Below, piece after piece: positions 7,518 through 40,319 of a stretch of DNA of 64,000 nt. The number at the start of each line of letters is the position of its first letter. Position 1 is the stretch's first letter. Below the pieces are notes generated by a model. It ran no database searches. It saw nothing but the letters and a program-made list of their open reading frames with translations, and was not told the origin of the DNA. A program made the translations under genes and the position numbers. The DNA comes from Clostridia bacterium (lineage in GTDB: Bacteria > Bacillota > Clostridia > Oscillospirales > CAG-272): NCBI GenBank assembly GCA_017387685.1, contig JAFOEU010000010.1, positions 103,275 through 167,274 of the forward strand, written 5' to 3'.

Positions 7518-9054
7518 CTTCCGCCTCCTTTCTGTGAGCCTCGGCAAGAGTTATACGATCGGGAATAAGCCCCTCGGGTAGTCTTTCGAGGTATTCTGCA
7601 AGCGTGATATGACCGCCGTCGAGCAGACGGTCGAGCACACTTTGCGTTCCCGATGCCGAATATCGTGCGCTGTCGCAGACGTCGATCTTGGCGCGGATCA
7701 GTGCGGTGTGAAGGCGCGAGGGAAAGAGCCTTCCTAAGCCTTCGCGTGTTCGGAGCGGTCTGCCGTCAGGGCAGAATGCGAGCGTCATATCAGCCCAGAT
7801 GCGAGCCATTTCCTCAAGACAGAGATAGAGCTCACTCTGAACGTGCTCAAGCGCCTGCATAGATGCCTCGCGCAGAGCAAGGATCGCACTTGTGTTCGTC
7901 GGGTTGACGTTACCGAGCGCGGTGTCGGTTGCGCCCGAAAGCTCCTTAGTGGTTGCGATCGCATTTTCGATCAGTTCAAGGTATCCCGCCTCAAGCTGAC
8001 CCGTGCCGACGACGGTGACAGCATCAGAGAGATTTCCGCCTCCGACAGCCGCGATTGCCTCACCGATCTCGTTCGTCCACTCGGGAATGCGGGTGCGGTC
8101 GTAGATGACCTTTGAGAATGCCGTGTCGGTCATGTGCTTCATCAGCATCGCGTAGGCACGGTTGATGTATTTTTGATTTGCGATCATCGACGTAACGGGC
8201 GTGTTGCCGAAAAAGCAGTTTTTCGCTGTCTGCCACGAGAAGTGTGCCACGGGATAGAGCTTGCAATCGGTCACGGCGCGGCGGATAAGACAGTCACGCG
8301 TGGATTTTTCAAACACTACTCGGTCTCCCTCGCGGAAGAATTTGATGAGATAGGTCGCGCGAGCCTCGCCCGCCTCGTATTCGGGCTCGTATTTTGCAAG
8401 CTCACCCGCGCCGCGTTCGTTGATGTCCGATGCGGAATCGGGCTGAATGCGCGAAATATCCTTCTCGCTTACACCCGCAGAGCGCGCCTCTCGGCGAAGT
8501 GCATCAACGCTTGCTCTTCCCGAGATTATCAGATAATCCTGCGACTGAATATCGGGATTCGTTACGTCGGCGGGAAAGATGTTTGCCGAGTCGATCGTTT
8601 CGGTGATAATATCACCGCGCCAACCGCCGCCTCCGTCGCAGTCGGTATCCCACGAGCAATAGAGAAGTCCGTCACCCGTCAGCGCGGCATCGTAGAGCAG
8701 ACGGTAGATGAGCTTTTGCAGGCGTGCGTGTTCCCAACGGTACGCGGCATTGTCAGTCAGCACCGTAAGAGTGCTTTTGATCGCCTCGCCTTCTGCAGAA
8801 TTTGCCGCGAAGGGAAGGTTTTCGTCGGTATAAGTGATCTTGACGTCACCCACCGCGGCGGTAGAAACGAGATAATCGACTATTCGGCTGATGACGTTGA
8901 AAACGGGTTTGGGAAGATCGCCGCCTCCGCGCCATTGATCGCCTCGATAGAAGCGTTCGTTTTCCTCGGCGCGGGAGTAGAGCCCGATCTGCCTTTTGTA
9001 ATTTCGCCCGGCTTCGTACTGCCGCCAGGTCTTTTTTTGTGATTCGGTTGTCAT
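7489..9054 (-). CDS. Phage portal protein
   Basis: 521-residue portal-like protein. The N terminus has the usual W-x-x-Y-x-x-ERNYRGDQW-type pattern (ENERFYRGDQWRGGG), then FNVISRIVDYLVS, a central beta region with YLIKFFREGD, and a helical stem/clip region containing TDTALGNVNPTNTSAI and a run of long helices near residues 370-420. Portals form the dodecameric ring through which the terminase pumps DNA. AAAGGAG lies 6 nt before the ATG. The C terminus is acidic (EAEDGRDDRNDE) and overlaps the scaffold gene, as in many phage head operons. Confidence 0.87.
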   Translation of the reverse strand: MTTESQKKTWRQYEAGRNYKRQIGLYSRAEENERFYRGDQWRGGGDLPKPVFNVISRIVDYLVSTAAVGDVKITYTDENLPFAANSAEGEAIKSTLTVLTDNAAYRWEHARLQKLIYRLLYDAALTGDGLLYCSWDTDCDGGGGWRGDIITETIDSANIFPADVTNPDIQSQDYLIISGRASVDALRREARSAGVSEKDISRIQPDSASDINERGAGELAKYEPEYEAGEARATYLIKFFREGDRVVFEKSTRDCLIRRAVTDCKLYPVAHFSWQTAKNCFFGNTPVTSMIANQKYINRAYAMLMKHMTDTAFSKVIYDRTRIPEWTNEIGEAIAAVGGGNLSDAVTVVGTGQLEAGYLELIENAIATTKELSGATDTALGNVNPTNTSAILALREASMQALEHVQSELYLCLEEMARIWADMTLAFCPDGRPLRTREGLGRLFPSRLHTALIRAKIDVCDSARYSASGTQSVLDRLLDGGHITLAEYLERLPEGLIPDRITLAEAHRKEAEDGRDDRNDE

Positions 9055-10846: not shown

Positions 10847-12187
10847 TTAGTCGAAAAATGAATTTGAATGATTCTTTTTGAATCTGAATTTGTGCTCCGT
10901 AGCCTCGGGCGTTGCGAAACGGCTCATCAGCGCGTATCGCAATGCCTCGGGCGAGTGGGTGACCGAGTGAGGCTCACCCGAGGCATCCTCGGAGCGGTTC
11001 TTGTCGAAGAGAAGTGCGGGCATACAGCGTATCAGCTCGCGGCATCGGCGGCTGATGATCAGTCCGGGGAACCCGTCCTCTCTGTCTTTCAGGTGCTCGC
11101 GCATAAGTCTCCAACCGGGAATACGTCGGTCGTCAGCCGGACGCATCGGCGGCATACCGGGGGTCTCCTGCATTATCTCAAAGCCGCTTTTGCCCGTGTC
11201 CTGCCGACGGTTCCAAAGGTCGGGCGAGGCAACGGCAAATTCAACGTTCTTACCTCTGCAAAGCTCCGAAATACGAATAGCCGCTTCGCCGAGCGTCAGA
11301 TTCGGCGCGCAGAATTCGTCGGTGACGTAAACTCTGCCGTCCGCATCGGAGATGCAGATATACGAGGCGAGCATATCGAAGCCGTAGTCGAAGGCAACGA
11401 TCGTGTGTCTTGCGCGTGGGATGGCGTTTTCTGCGCAGACGTGCCTCGATTCGTCGAATTCGGTGAAGAATTGCCCTTCGAAAACGTCCCATTTACCGTA
11501 AAGCCAAGCCTCACGAAGTCTCGGCGGCAGAGTTTCGAGCCTGCGCACATAGTCGGGATCGGCGCGGGTGAGAACTCCGTTGTCGAAGACGGTCGCGGGG
11601 ATGAAGGCGTAATCGTCGGGATCCTCGCCGCCGCGGTATTCGCGGTCGATGAAGAGCCGCTTTACCCAAGCGTGACCGACTCCGCCGGGGTTGCAGGTGA
11701 GATACATACGCCTCGGGCAGTCCCGAGTGCCTCGCAGACAAGCCTTGAAGATGGAAAACTGATATTCGCTCAGCTGCGTTGCTTCGTCGAGGGCTATTAC
11801 GTCGTATTCCTGCCCCTGATAGCGAAGGGCGTCGCGCTCGGCGGCGGAGTAGCCGAGGGTAATGGTGCTTCCGTTTTCAAAGCAGAGTGTGCGGTCGCGC
11901 TCGCAGTAGGTGAGGATCTCACCGTACTCTGCGAGCAGAGGATTCAGATGGTTCGAGCGCAGCTCGGGGAGAGTTCTGCGCACAAGCAGGCAGCGAAGTC
12001 CGGGGTATCGCAGGCACATAAGCACCAGCTTTCGCCGAAGAGCCCAGGATTTACCGCCTCCGCGCGCGCCTCCGTAGGCGACGAACTTACACCGACAAGC
12101 GAAAAATTCGCGCTGACGGTCGTTTGGAACACCGCCGATGCGGAGCGCACGCTCGGGCGGACTATCCGCCGTCCTCGTAAGCGTCAT
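10847..12187 (-). CDS. Phage terminase large subunit
   Basis: 446-residue DNA-packaging motor. Walker A is GGARGGGKS (residues about 39-47), Walker B is DVIALDEA (about 129-136), and a coupling-type YLTCNPGG follows. The C-terminal RNase H-like nuclease begins with VAFDYGFD, supplying the first catalytic Asp. All motifs are intact, so ATPase and nuclease activity are plausible. The ATG at 12187 lies inside the end of the small-subunit gene (26-bp overlap) without a strong binding site, suggesting translational coupling. Confidence 0.93.
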   Translation of the reverse strand: MTLTRTADSPPERALRIGGVPNDRQREFFACRCKFVAYGGARGGGKSWALRRKLVLMCLRYPGLRCLLVRRTLPELRSNHLNPLLAEYGEILTYCERDRTLCFENGSTITLGYSAAERDALRYQGQEYDVIALDEATQLSEYQFSIFKACLRGTRDCPRRMYLTCNPGGVGHAWVKRLFIDREYRGGEDPDDYAFIPATVFDNGVLTRADPDYVRRLETLPPRLREAWLYGKWDVFEGQFFTEFDESRHVCAENAIPRARHTIVAFDYGFDMLASYICISDADGRVYVTDEFCAPNLTLGEAAIRISELCRGKNVEFAVASPDLWNRRQDTGKSGFEIMQETPGMPPMRPADDRRIPGWRLMREHLKDREDGFPGLIISRRCRELIRCMPALLFDKNRSEDASGEPHSVTHSPEALRYALMSRFATPEATEHKFRFKKNHSNSFFD

Positions 12188-35877: not shown

Positions 35878-36555
35878 TCACTTTTTAATCATTCCTCTTA
35901 GCGCTTCAAGGGCGTCGGTCAGGCCGCCTACGGCGTCGATTATGCCGTATTTTACAGCCTCCTCGCCCGCGAGAACGCTTCCGACGTCGGTTGCGATCTG
36001 ATCGGGGCGCATCATTAATTCGCGCAGAGTTTCGGGCTCGGCGCGAGAGTTGCGGCTGATGAAGCTGATGATCCTCTCCTGCATATCGCGGAAATAGGTG
36101 AAGGTTTGCGGTGCGCCTACAACGGTGCCGCTGATGCGGACGGGGTGGATCGTCATTGTTGCGCTTGGTACGATGAAGGATTTTTTCGCCGAAACCGCAA
36201 GGGGGATGCCGATCGAATGCCCGCCGCCGAGGACTATCGAAACTGTCGGCTTCGACATACTCGATATCAACTCGGCGATCGCAAGCCCCGCCTCAACGTC
36301 GCCTCCCATCGTGTTGAGAAGCAGAAGCACGCCGTCCGTGTGCTCGTCCTCCTCAAGCGACACGAGTCGGGGAAGGATATGCTCGTATTTCGTGCTTTTC
36401 TGATTTTCGCCCGCGAGATAATGCCCCTCGATCGTCCCGACTATGCACATACAGTAGATCGACTCGCGCGAATTTTCCATAAGCACCATCCCGTCGGGCA
36501 CGTCACCGAGCAGACTTTCTTGCTTATTTATATCTTCCTTGTTTTCTTTGCTCAT
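35878..36555 (-). CDS. tepA: ClpP-class serine protease, TepA-like
   Basis: 225 residues. ClpP/crotonase fold with catalytic Ser in GGHSIGIPLA (S114) and His in TIHPVRISG (H137); LLNTMGGDVEAGLAIAELI precedes them. The IYCMCIVGTIEGHYLAG start is typical of TepA (YmfB), a cytosolic protease reported to assist protein export and sporulation-related signal-peptide clearance in Bacillus. Its usual partner ftsK/spoIIIE is not adjacent. GGGAGC precedes the ATG. Own terminator. Confidence 0.9.
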   Translation of the reverse strand: MSKENKEDINKQESLLGDVPDGMVLMENSRESIYCMCIVGTIEGHYLAGENQKSTKYEHILPRLVSLEEDEHTDGVLLLLNTMGGDVEAGLAIAELISSMSKPTVSIVLGGGHSIGIPLAVSAKKSFIVPSATMTIHPVRISGTVVGAPQTFTYFRDMQERIISFISRNSRAEPETLRELMMRPDQIATDVGSVLAGEEAVKYGIIDAVGGLTDALEALRGMIKK

Positions 36556-36629
36556 TTTAAGCTCCCGTTTTTTTAGTTATTATTTCCGAGAAGTGGGAAT
36601 ATATGCTTCAAAAAATTTTTTAATTTATA

Positions 36630-36658
36630 TTGACAAATACAAACAGGTGTAGTATAAT
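36630..36658 (+). promoter_or_regulatory. Consensus sigma-A promoter of the type III toxin-antitoxin locus
   Basis: TTGACA, 17-bp spacer, TATAAT: the best promoter in the window. The transcript would begin near 36665, directly before the repeat array. Confidence 0.85.
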
Positions 36659-36664
36659 AATAAT

Positions 36665-36810
36665 GTAAGATGATGCTTCATCTTTTGGCTTCGCAGTATG
36701 AGACGAGTGACGGTTCCGACTCGTCGGTAAACTAAAAACTGACCGACAATGATGATGTGTGACGGTTCTGACACATCGGTAAAATAAAAATTGACCGAGC
36801 GAAGTTTATA
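36665..36810 (+). ncRNA. Type III antitoxin RNA (TenpI/ToxI-like) with two 52-nt repeats
   Basis: Two repeats with a 52-nt period (about 36700-36751 and 36752-36803). In each, a 7-bp stem (GACGAGT/ACTCGTC in repeat 1; GATGTGT/ACACATC in repeat 2) closes the 10-nt loop GACGGTTCCG or GACGGTTCTG. The stems differ at paired positions but still pair: compensatory change. A conserved A-rich linker leads to GACCG, which can pair with the loop CGGTT, giving an H-type pseudoknot, as in type III antitoxins. CTTCGC (36689-36694) can pair with GCGAAG (36799-36804) around both. A further hairpin lies at 36667-36684. In known systems the toxin cuts this RNA into repeat-length antitoxins. Confidence 0.8.
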
Positions 36811-36846
36811 ATGGGGTCGGCTGCGGTTGACCCCATATATTTTAAT
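36811..36846 (+). terminator. Terminator between antitoxin RNA and toxin gene
   Basis: 8-bp perfect stem ATGGGGTC with complement, 10-nt loop, then ATATATTTTA. A leaky terminator between repeats and toxin is a hallmark of type III systems: it sets an excess of RNA over toxin mRNA. Confidence 0.75.
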
Positions 36847-36859
36847 GCGGTGATATGTT

Positions 36860-38797
36860 ATGCAAAATGTAGAAGTTTTAAGATTGTCTGCCCAGTTTTA
36901 CAACGATTATCCGTCGGACAAATATCCTGAGTTGCTTAAAAAAGCTGAGCGTCCTTACGCTTGCTTGATGATCGCGGTGCGGGAATATTATATTTGTATT
37001 CCGTATAGAACACATATAGATCATCAGAATTCTTTCAGATTCAAGAATTCGGTGCGTTCAAAGTCAAATAAATCGGGCTTGGATTACTCAAAGCTTGCCA
37101 TTATTGCCGACAGAGCTTATTTTGATGAATCTCCCGCTTTGATTGACAAAGATGAGTATAACGAGACGATGATAAATATTGAAAAGATCATCGCTTCGGT
37201 GCAGAAATATATTGATACATATATTGACCATATTGCCGGTACTGCAAAAATACACGAAAAAGAATTTGCCAGAAAATATAAATATTCCACGTTGCCTTAT
37301 TTTTATAGGGAACTGGGGATTGAAGAGGAACAAATAATGAACATTTCCGAACTTAAACCCGCAAAAGTATTTGAATATTTCTCGCTCTTGTCGAGTGTGC
37401 CGCACGGTTCGGGCAATATGAAGCCTATCGCCGACATCTGCGAGAATTTTGCACGCGAGCGCGGACTTGAATGTATCCGCGATGCGGCGGACAATATCAT
37501 CATCAAAAAGCCCGGCACCGCAGGATATGAAAATTCCGAGTCCCTGATCCTTCAGGGACATCTCGATATGGTATGCGCCAAGGATCCCGATTGCAAGAAG
37601 GATATGGCGACCGAGCCGATCGAGCTTTACGTTGACGGCGATTGCCTCCGCGCGCGCGGAACCTCGCTCGGCGGCGACAATATCATTGCGGTTGCAATGA
37701 CCATGGCTATTCTTGATTCGGACGATATTCCCCACCCTCCCATCGAGGCGGTATTCACCGTCGATGAGGAGGTCGGACTGCTCGGCGCGTCTGCACTTGA
37801 TTTCTCTGCTCTTAAGGGCAAGAGAATGATCAACCTTGACTCCGAGGAGGAGGGCGTTTTCACGGTTTGCTGTGCGGGAGGTGTTCGTGTCAACGCCACC
37901 ATTCCGCTTACCTTTGAGGATGTCACCACCGACAGCGTTGCCTACAAGGTCACGCTTTCGGGTCTTATGGGCGGTCATTCGGGCGTTGATATAGACAAGG
38001 GACGCGAGAGCGCGAACAGACTTATCATCCGATTCCTTACCAAGCTTTACGAGAAGGTAGGTTTCGGACTTGCCTCTCTTGCGGGCGGTCAGCTTGATAA
38101 CGTTATCTGCCCCGAGTCGAGTGCTATTATCGTTATCAAAAATGATAAAAATGATATCGCCAATCTTCTCGCCGAGGCAGAAAATTATGATGCGATCTAC
38201 AAAAATGAGCTTGCTGCAGGCGACGGCGGTGTTACTGTGACTGTAACTGCTTGCGATCTTCCCACGTGCCGCGTTCTTCCCGAGGAGAGCGCAAAGGTGC
38301 TTGCGACAATGTATCTGCTCCCCTATCACATTCAGAAGATGAGCCGCGATTTTGAGGGCCTTGTTCAGACCTCGCTCAATATGGGCGTTCTGAAGCTTAC
38401 CGATGAGGCAATGAAGTTCTCCTATTCGGTGCGCTCCTCAATCGCAAGCGAGAAGAACGATCTTGTTGACAAGATCAAGTGCTTGCTCACACTTGCTTAC
38501 GATAATGCCACCATCGATCTTCACGGTGACTATCCCTCTTGGGAATACAAGCGCGACTCCTCGCTGCGCGAGGTTATTATGACCGCATACAGCGAAACCA
38601 CAGGTGAAAGCGGCATCGTAGCCGGAACTCACGGCGGACTTGAATGCGGAATCTTCTCCGAGCGCATCTCAGGACTTGACTGCGTTTCGATGGGACCGAA
38701 TCTTTCCGAGGTACATTCCCCTCGCGAAAGCCTCGATATCCCCTCCGTCGAAAGACTTTGGGAGCTTATGAAGGTTATTCTTAAGAAAATGAAATAA
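36860..38797 (+). CDS. pepD: Type III toxin (TenpN/ToxN-like) fused in frame to PepD dipeptidase
   Basis: One uninterrupted 645-codon frame. Residues 1 to about 158 resemble the ToxN/AbiQ/TenpN endoribonuclease toxins in length and pattern: RPYACLMIAVREYYICIPYR, NSVRSKSNKSGLDYSK, LIDKDEYNETM and KYKYSTLPYFYRELGI. Residues 160-645 are a complete M20-family aminoacyl-histidine dipeptidase (PepD), a cytosolic zinc peptidase: ILQGHLDMVC (about 230-239), SLGGDNIIAVA, VDEEVGLLGA, LMGGHSGVDI, and a late GTHGGLECG. PepD alone is normally about 485 residues, which matches the segment from Met160. That Met has its own ribosome site, so full fusion, free PepD, or both may be made. CGGTGAT precedes the first ATG. 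Loss of the toxin stop codon is the simplest origin. Confidence 0.85.
   Translation: MQNVEVLRLSAQFYNDYPSDKYPELLKKAERPYACLMIAVREYYICIPYRTHIDHQNSFRFKNSVRSKSNKSGLDYSKLAIIADRAYFDESPALIDKDEYNETMINIEKIIASVQKYIDTYIDHIAGTAKIHEKEFARKYKYSTLPYFYRELGIEEEQIMNISELKPAKVFEYFSLLSSVPHGSGNMKPIADICENFARERGLECIRDAADNIIIKKPGTAGYENSESLILQGHLDMVCAKDPDCKKDMATEPIELYVDGDCLRARGTSLGGDNIIAVAMTMAILDSDDIPHPPIEAVFTVDEEVGLLGASALDFSALKGKRMINLDSEEEGVFTVCCAGGVRVNATIPLTFEDVTTDSVAYKVTLSGLMGGHSGVDIDKGRESANRLIIRFLTKLYEKVGFGLASLAGGQLDNVICPESSAIIVIKNDKNDIANLLAEAENYDAIYKNELAAGDGGVTVTVTACDLPTCRVLPEESAKVLATMYLLPYHIQKMSRDFEGLVQTSLNMGVLKLTDEAMKFSYSVRSSIASEKNDLVDKIKCLLTLAYDNATIDLHGDYPSWEYKRDSSLREVIMTAYSETTGESGIVAGTHGGLECGIFSERISGLDCVSMGPNLSEVHSPRESLDIPSVERLWELMKVILKKMK
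37322..37339 (+). promoter_or_regulatory. Internal ribosome binding site and start for free PepD
   Basis: GAAGAGGAA, then 6-8 nt, then ATG at 37337-37339, in frame with the toxin. The protein from here starts MNISELKPAKVFEYF, the normal PepD N terminus. Confidence 0.7.
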
Positions 38798-38833
38798 AAT
38801 GAAAGAACCGCCCGCGGGCGGTTCTTTCATTTT
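38796..38833. terminator. Perfect 38-bp palindromic bidirectional terminator
   Basis: AAAATGAAAGAACCGCCCG and its exact complement; it overlaps the pepD stop on one strand and touches the stop of the convergent SGNH gene on the other. Confidence 0.85.
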
Positions 38834-40319
38834 AAGTATTCGGAACGTAAATTCTCAGATGACACGCTGCCTGAGCGTAGAGCTTGGAAATATCCGATTT
38901 GGGATTCGATGCGATATTCCATACGAGATATTTCATATCCTTGAGGAAACTTTCGTCGAGGACGAAGAAGTTCTGCGTTATCATACCGGGGCGTGTGCCC
39001 GTATACTTTGCGTTTTCGGTAACGAAGCCTTCAAGTCGGTACTGCCAGCCGTTGTCAACGATGAAGATCGTGCCAACGGGAACTTCGTCGAGAGTGTACT
39101 TTTTGTCACAGCAGACGTTTTGCTGATAAGTGCTTCCAGAAGCTTTCGGAACGGTCGTGGTTGCCTTGCTTGTGGAATTCCAATAGGTATTTTCGAGATA
39201 ATTCCACTCGAGGAGCGTGTATTTCGAAAGATCAATGCTGTTCTGCGCTGCAAGAACGGTGTCCGCCTCGATAAAGTCTGCCGCGTTGAGCTGAATTGAT
39301 GGGTCCTCGATGGGCGCGTCATCCTTGGGACGCTCTCCTGTGGTCACGGTCGACTTTGTTACCTCGAGAGGCTTTGCAATCGCTGTCTTTACCGCTTCCT
39401 TTGCCGCGCGGAGCATATCATCGTTGATCTTTGCGGTTGAGGGATTGTAAGTAATACCGTCAACCGAGCCTCCCGTGATAGCCGCATACCAGGTGAGTCC
39501 CGCAATGTATCTTCCTATATAATAATCAAGGTGATAGCCGTCGCGGGTGAGCGTGTCGCCCATAAAGGACGTGCGCGCGTTCTGGATAGAGGTCATACAG
39601 GGGATCATAACGTCGAAATTGAGGGGCGTGATAACGGTGTTCACGACGTCGATGATCATATTATACATCTTCATCTGATCCTTGCCGTAATTCGGGAAGG
39701 ATGCGTGAGTGGAGTCCTGCTGATAAGCCCAGGTCATATTCCAGATGAGCTTTGCCTCGGGACATTTTTCCTTGACGATGGTGATCATCTCGTCAAGCTT
39801 GCTATAGGAATTTGCAAGTCCGCAGGTCTTTGAGGTCTGCTGAAGGGAAACGTAATCCCACTTTTCGTCGGTCAATGCCTGACTCATCTTGTAGCTTTCG
39901 GTCTTTATCCAGCCTCTGCCCGTTTGCTTGTAGTAGGTGTAGCTCGCGGAATCGTTTTTCGCAAACTGATAATGCTGATCGAGCGAGCAGCCGCCGTAGT
40001 AGAGGTTGCCGAGGGTGATCTCTTCGACACCGCCGTTCTTCATGATCTCATAAAGATACTGCATCGAGTCGGTGGAGAAGCTGTTGCCGATGGCGAGGAT
40101 CTTGAGCGACTTCGGGAATTCCTTGACCTCTGTCTGCGCAGTAGTTTCCTTCGCGGTAGTTTCGTCGGAGGTGGTTTCGGGTGCTTCGGTCAGCTCGGGC
40201 GCTTTGGTAGTCTCGGGGACTTTTGTGGTTTCCTCCGCCTCGCCCGTGCACGCGGAAAGCGCGATGGGAAGGATCATAATAAGTGAAAGTATCAAAGTGA
40301 CGTAGCGGATCTTTTTCAT
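38832..40319 (-). CDS. SGNH/DUF4886-type lipoprotein
   Basis: 495 residues. Lipoprotein signal with lipobox ALSAC (Cys about 24), then a Thr/Pro/Glu-rich linker to about residue 65. The catalytic-like domain follows: ILAIGNSFSTDSM (nucleophile Ser in GNSFS), YGGCSLDQH, and RDGYHLDYYIGRYIAG with the late Asp-x-x-His. This is the DUF4886 branch of SGNH esterases. A C-terminal domain (about 340-495) of unknown type is unusual for this family. It starts 3 bp after the oxidoreductase gene. Sugar deacetylation is a reasonable guess for a surface esterase. Confidence 0.85.
   Translation of the reverse strand: MKKIRYVTLILSLIMILPIALSACTGEAEETTKVPETTKAPELTEAPETTSDETTAKETTAQTEVKEFPKSLKILAIGNSFSTDSMQYLYEIMKNGGVEEITLGNLYYGGCSLDQHYQFAKNDSASYTYYKQTGRGWIKTESYKMSQALTDEKWDYVSLQQTSKTCGLANSYSKLDEMITIVKEKCPEAKLIWNMTWAYQQDSTHASFPNYGKDQMKMYNMIIDVVNTVITPLNFDVMIPCMTSIQNARTSFMGDTLTRDGYHLDYYIGRYIAGLTWYAAITGGSVDGITYNPSTAKINDDMLRAAKEAVKTAIAKPLEVTKSTVTTGERPKDDAPIEDPSIQLNAADFIEADTVLAAQNSIDLSKYTLLEWNYLENTYWNSTSKATTTVPKASGSTYQQNVCCDKKYTLDEVPVGTIFIVDNGWQYRLEGFVTENAKYTGTRPGMITQNFFVLDESFLKDMKYLVWNIASNPKSDISKLYAQAACHLRIYVPNT

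Follow-up and report, generated by a model that had tools for sequence, protein, structure and literature searches.

The fused reading frame

The stretch of DNA analysed here (the window, 64,000 nt of contig JAFOEU010000010.1 from the Clostridia bacterium assembly GCA_017387685.1, lineage CAG-272) carries a type III toxin of the TenpIN family that is read without interruption into pepD, the gene of a dipeptidase. The joint frame, 36860-38797, comprises 645 codons from ATG to stop and is built of a full-length toxin (to about residue 154), five joining codons and a complete PepD (from residue 160). As far as the assembly goes, the fusion is genuine. The coordinates of the frame and of the elements around it are collected in Table 1.

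Table 1. Features of the toxin-pepD locus (window coordinates).
Feature	Position	Strand	Evidence
Divergent gene of a ClpP-like serine protease, landmark of the locus in relatives	35878..36555	-	PF00574 82.6 bits; also in L003 and L005, by blastn in L004
Remnant of the ClpP-pepD intergenic region, where similarity to relatives ends ahead of the module	36578..36611	+	blastn to L003 (88% over 34 nt); end of longer matches to L004 and L005
Module promoter, TTGACA-17 nt-TATAAT, 12 of 12	36630..36658	+	consensus scan
TenpI antitoxin repeat 1, fitting an H-type pseudoknot with 7 pairs in stem 1 and 5 in stem 2	36702..36746	+	repeat search; structure count
TenpI antitoxin repeat 2, 84% identical to repeat 1, stem 1 changes compensated	36754..36798	+	repeat search; structure count
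Hairpin of 11 pairs with the T-rich tail ATATTTTAAT, attenuator- or terminator-like, separating antitoxin from toxin	36811..36836	+	folding; terminator scan
TenpN toxin, residues 1-154	36860..37321	+	NF047358 165.2 bits; pLDDT 90.9; type III toxins as best matches among solved structures
Five codons between toxin and PepD, residues 155-159 (EEEQI), in-frame reading of the pepD leader, which includes the ribosome site AGAGGA (37324-37329)	37322..37336	+	relatives' similarity begins 37323-37325; pLDDT <50 at 157-160
pepD, beta-Ala-His type dipeptidase (M20), complete, own ATG	37337..38797	+	TIGR01893 500.6 bits; identity to relatives; dN/dS
18-pair hairpin 3' of pepD, where the shared transcript probably ends	38795..38834	.	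scan (listed on minus strand; stem palindromic)

Both parts were assigned with profile hidden Markov models (HMM). With the first 159 residues as the query, residues 9-152 matched the NCBIfam model NF047358 (TenpIN family toxin) over its whole length (1-141 of 141) at 165.2 bits, the curated cut-off being 90 bits. Residues 165-645 covered TIGR01893 completely (1-478 of 478) at 500.6 bits, the cut-off being 343.75 bits. The initial annotation, which had described a ToxN/TenpN-like endoribonuclease running in frame into a complete PepD, was thus borne out. Other searches with the toxin part returned little: Pfam gave no match to the first 159 residues at E values up to 1, a search of the PDB by sequence no useful match, and PADLOC weak matches alone, to JetA1 (E 7e-4) and Control_protein (E 0.035).

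The structure model of the toxin part was predicted with high confidence (predicted local distance difference test, pLDDT, 90.9), and its best matches among solved structures were the type III toxins ToxN, AbiQ and CptN, so that the model agrees with the HMM and this part appears to adopt the type III toxin fold. ToxN, AbiQ and CptN are free-standing proteins. Sequence identity to their structures (4ato, 4glk, 2xd0, 7d8o, 4rmo) was as low as 8-10% in the structural-match alignments. A chance likeness of the N-terminal part to ToxN was ruled out by the full-length family match together with the fold match, and the resemblance is more than chance because that family match comes with the cognate repeat RNA directly upstream. 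Position 51 is serine or threonine in 19 of 20 toxins (the window's and its 19 aligned relatives). Ser51 of AbiQ is described as the nucleophile (PMC5086642), and we take position 51 to be its equivalent from its place in the sequence. Cleavage of RNA by the toxin part and its neutralisation by the repeat RNA are putative.

In the model of the whole protein (mean pLDDT 90.8, predicted template modelling score 0.69) both parts are confidently folded, and pLDDT falls below 50 solely at residues 157-160; the window's row alone covers both parts in the underlying alignment, which makes the relative placement of the two parts meaningless.

The PepD part is like the other proteins of the TIGR01893 (M20) family in being complete, 86% identical to the protein of the related genome G004 and begun at the same methionine, and differs from them in the in-frame upstream extension, which is the toxin. 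The ribosome site AGAGGA lies 7 nt 5' of the ATG at 37337, and in three close relatives PepD starts at this same methionine, as expected from the proposal that PepD has retained a start of its own. The ratio of nonsynonymous to synonymous divergence (dN/dS) was 0.11, 0.17 and 0.18 to G004, G009 and G012, respectively (to G004, dN 0.089 and dS 0.782), which indicates that pepD is under purifying selection over its divergence and makes a loss of metal ligands or catalytic residues unlikely. Since, in addition, it is the sole PepD match in its incomplete genome, PepD is probably still made, and probably also from its own start at 37337.

Antitoxin RNA, promoter and hairpin

Type III systems are described as a single promoter followed by tandem RNA repeats, a hairpin terminator and the toxin gene, and the TenpIN systems take their name from the system of Photorhabdus luminescens (PMC5086642). 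The window shares with the TenpIN systems the single promoter, the short tandem repeats that fit a pseudoknot, the hairpin terminator, the toxin gene, the family HMM and the fold. It differs from them in two respects: the toxin frame, lacking a stop, is read on into pepD, and the module occupies the leader of a housekeeping gene that has lost its promoter.

The antitoxin region consists of two copies of a 45-nt repeat, which start at 36702 and 36754 (spacing 52 nt). The promoter ahead of them is the sole 12-of-12 sigma-70 consensus match in the scanned region, where the scan listed 7 sites in all compared with 3.8 (standard deviation, sd, 2.1) in shuffled sequences. The terminator scan gave 5 terminator-like sites in 2401 nt, compared with 2.7 (sd 1.9) in shuffles, and the stretch 36667-36860 folds with a z-score of -2.92. 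One promoter for antitoxin and toxin, with a terminator between them, was therefore found, by consensus scan only. A weak DNA match to 36616-36658 is present elsewhere in the same genome (L092).

The same repeat type precedes the toxin in 9 of the 19 aligned relatives and a different one in four more (L044, L046, L059, L060); inspection by eye covered the upstream DNA of these 13. Promoter-like matches of at least 9 of 12 lie within 130 nt 5' of the repeats in eight of the nine relatives with the window's repeat type and reach 12 of 12 in four, a count made without a shuffle control; in the ninth (L038) the region is cut by the contig end.

The H-type pseudoknot was written by hand and counted on 18 repeats, 15 of them distinct, from ten loci. 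All 180 cells pair, and 5 of the 12 pairs show changes on both sides. The covariation score was 0.316, the mean of the shuffles being 0.115, and no shuffle out of 500 reached it. Further pair types, one of the five measures, were not unusual (143 of 500 shuffles). When the pseudoknot was slid along the repeats 18-49% of the cells paired, a control that favours the structure, as this was derived from the same sequences. The support for stem 2 comes from little variation: a two-sided change affects one pair in a single sequence, and a one-sided change affects one pair in three sequences. A repeat RNA thus lies upstream of the toxin, as had been proposed; its repeats are in tandem and fit a pseudoknot, as in the TenpIN systems, and all pairs are kept in the 15 distinct repeats. 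Rfam, searched over the whole window at gathering scores, gave no match, its weak matches falling solely on the hairpin after pepD; the antitoxin repeats are therefore outside Rfam coverage. From promoter, repeats, hairpin and toxin, the toxin-antitoxin module looks intact.

Proposed insertion site compared with related genomes

This pepD lies beside a divergent ClpP-like gene (PF00574) in four genomes of the genus, that of the window included. Over query residues 1-486, PepD is 86, 80 and 77% identical to the proteins of G004, G009 and G012; in the nine other genomes of the genus the PepD matches are partial or at 38-50% identity. In blastn comparisons similarity to the relatives ends at 36611 on the left and resumes at 37323-37325 on the right, directly 5' of the ribosome site of pepD. 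Between these points (36612 to 37322-37324) the window has 711-713 nt where G012 has 41 nt and G004 49 nt, and these 41 and 49 nt hold the -10 box of pepD and most of its leader. The -35 box of the relatives, TTGAAT, reads TTCAAA at the left edge in the window; no -10 box follows it, and the promoter scan lists no site there. In G004 and G012 no gene stands between the pepD promoter and the ribosome site, and the long open frames ahead of pepD (559 and 601) are mechanical and cross the promoter.

The corresponding place in G009 is occupied by an unrelated gene. A DUF6946 gene (L004 2971-3708, minus strand; 245 residues, 81.8 bits, cut-off 27) lies there between promoter and ribosome site of pepD, with the pepD promoter retained. 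Its stop is followed by 12 nt and the pepD ATG, just as codon 155 in the window is followed by 12 nt and the pepD ATG. The open frame of pepD in G009 is taken as 490 and not as 742, the figure from the search with the fused protein, since an in-frame TAA precedes the pepD leader. Unrelated genes are thus found at the identical leader point, with a shared right-hand breakpoint, in two of the four species, which suggests a recurrent landing place. In G004 (L003), at about 100-370 nt upstream of pepD, a stretch of about 280 nt with complementary ends and without a match in the window separates the ClpP-like gene from the promoter of pepD; it is perhaps a small mobile repeat.

The alignment of toxin ends locates the missing stop. 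In the 19 aligned relatives the toxin ends at the equivalent of residue 154 in eight, one codon later in four, two codons later in four, five codons later in one and earlier in two. The window has a sense codon after residue 154, and then come the codons of the pepD leader, ribosome site included. The frame of the toxin crosses this site into pepD because no toxin stop is present at the right breakpoint, and the missing stop is the sole feature that turns an ordinary neighbourhood into a fusion. The length of about 158 residues assigned to the toxin in the initial annotation has to be shortened accordingly: the type III toxin stands, but its natural end is near residue 154, and residues 155-159 are pepD leader. 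Similarly, from the suggestion that the locus is debris of a toxin-antitoxin locus which landed before pepD and lost its stop, the landing and the loss of the stop are supported by what the relatives show, but the word debris is not supported for a module whose promoter, repeats, hairpin and toxin look intact.

Distribution of the fusion

The TenpIN family was surveyed in overlapping samples of 295, 391 and 394 genomes (family, class and order), drawn from larger groups. There were 29 matches to the model, of which 18 exceeded the cut-off. Read from stop to stop, the frame of the window has 647 residues, the other 28 frames 47-218, so that the window's is the only one of the 29 that is fused. 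The complete fused protein was also compared with all 13 genomes of the genus, several of them incomplete, and matched over both parts in that of the window alone (0 of 12 others). The search of related genomes for the same fusion that had been suggested therefore yielded none in these samples.

No match was obtained for module plus pepD in the plasmids searched. Relatives of TenpN were found in 3 phage records and 80 plasmid records, with identities below 60% among the matches listed (20 of the 80 for plasmids). A protein scan of viral contigs detected no TenpN relative, the scan being not exhaustive, as a DNA pattern found L084; a scan of genome contigs confirmed 3 loci out of 39 candidate stretches. 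Among open-licence papers, titles and the beginnings of abstracts mention no type III toxin that is joined to a peptidase, and neither "fusion" nor "fused" occurs in the text of the review PMC5086642.

Three loci met in these searches deserve description. At L084 (692-1285), an IMG/VR contig of 140,956 bases, TenpN has a C-terminal tail of about 45 residues past the family match (12-152 of 198). The TenpN of a Eubacterium metagenome-assembled genome (L037, 2977-3473) is split over two frames. In G009, a weak TenpN-like toxin (L033, 1270-2353) precedes a NUDIX gene and ends in its probable ribosome site. Like the window, this locus has a promoter-like box and a hairpin (by eye), and the end of its toxin gene reaches into the presumed ribosome site downstream; unlike it, the toxin keeps a stop (TGA, then CACT, then ATG), and it scores 45 bits, the cut-off being 90. 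The genome of the window contains a NUDIX gene 75% identical to that of L033 with a promoter-like box just 5' of it; the flanks differ, and no empty site is proven.

Origin of the fusion and competing explanations

We consider it probable, from the comparison of sequences, that an intact TenpIN module was inserted in the 5' leader of pepD, put pepD under its own transcription and lost its stop. The fusion looks like the one-off product of this insertion and not like a purpose-built two-part enzyme, and the joint protein is most likely a tolerated by-product. By analogy with type III systems, transcription would start at the promoter of the module, and most transcripts would end at the hairpin, giving much antitoxin RNA and little read-through. 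Read-through would produce a single toxin-pepD messenger RNA, from which ribosomes starting at 36860 would make a TenpN-PepD protein of 645 residues and those starting at the retained ATG 37337 free PepD, while the RNA pseudoknots would restrain the toxin part. With pepD depending on the transcription of the module, the module would become harder to lose.

Several observations weigh against the insertion and its consequences for pepD. Only four genomes bear on the direction of the change, that is whether the module was gained in the window or lost elsewhere. The ribosome site ahead of 37337 is weaker than its counterparts in three relatives (-5.8 kcal/mol vs -7.3, -7.2 and -7.2) and is equalled or bettered by 8 of the 34 other ATGs of the frame. 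The plus strand has three 9-of-12 promoter matches inside the toxin (36965, 37095, 37224), and there could be a weak pepD promoter within the toxin gene.

A functional fusion, with TenpN and PepD working as a single protein or with the level or activity of PepD controlled by the TenpI RNA through its hold on the toxin part, is unlikely in our judgement. It would wire a metabolic peptidase to a phage-sensing RNA module. Both parts are modelled as well-folded units with a short loose linker, neither has a frame break, and a C-terminal tail is tolerated in at least one relative, L084; against this, PepD retains a start and ribosome site of its own, the fusion is confined to one of the 29 TenpIN places and one of the 13 genomes of the genus, and a join in frame is expected by chance about once in three, so that it is no evidence of selection by itself. 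A selected bifunctional protein is accordingly a bold alternative, possible but unsupported. It is tempting to speculate, though with little confidence, that pepD is a captured metabolic gene: PepD would be made partly as TenpN-PepD held by TenpI pseudoknots, with pepD transcribed via the promoter and attenuator of the module. Loss of the module would then cost the cell its only PepD, and a shut-off of transcription would free the toxin and end peptidase synthesis together.

A toxin already made harmless by the fusion, in a locus on its way out, is compatible with the insertion of the module and is regarded as rather doubtful. The loss of the stop would be a plausible initial defect and a bulky partner might interfere with the assembly of toxin and RNA, whereas the 12-of-12 promoter, the full pairing of both repeats, the confident toxin model and the full-length family match speak against decay; a decayed toxin was rejected, as the sequence bears no sign of it. 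Most improbable is an error of assembly or consensus that dropped a real stop between toxin and pepD, with an ordinary TenpIN module beside pepD in reality. The missing feature is a single codon, a stop occurs at exactly this place in 8 of the 19 aligned relatives, and the assembly is fragmented (2.58 Mb in 116 contigs, 84.67% complete). However, there is no other break within the 645 codons, the junction is at a distance of about 27 kb from either end or more in a contig of 167,274 bases, and the gene order of the relatives, kept on both flanks, makes a chimeric join unlikely.

TenpI-type repeats in viral contigs

A scan of IMG/VR for the repeat core gave 20 contigs, among which L084 alone has TenpN within the DNA examined (most contigs in part). 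In sixteen contigs (L071-L082, L085-L088) one solo TenpI-type repeat stands among transfer RNA (tRNA) genes, in five distinct 90-nt contexts, with no TenpN in the DNA examined. The repeat lies between tRNA-Phe and tRNA-Lys in 13 of the 16; ARAGORN listed at least five tRNA genes in 15 of the 16 stretches and a single one in L081. Stem 1 is fully paired in all five contexts, that of L078 and L080 being without one stem 2 pair, and a short complementary stem closes four of the five (by eye).

Three more contigs carry two repeats each. On the minus strand of L089 (about 7640-7865) the two repeats stand between a promoter-like box and a hairpin, and a short frame stub follows at the position of the toxin; in L090 (about 11490-11600) and L083 (about 2515-2620), as in L089, no toxin was found in the DNA examined. 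The viral repeats without a toxin are possible virus-borne antitoxin decoys. A table of PMC12926258 mentions a phage-encoded "pseudo-ToxI", of which they may be the natural counterpart.

Implications

The locus suggests that an RNA-controlled toxin module can join a housekeeping gene physically: it would replace the promoter of that gene, end just 5' of the ribosome site and, being without a stop, give one frame, with empty sites available in relatives for comparison. Such a join would be a simple route by which selfish or defence genes may escape deletion without killing.
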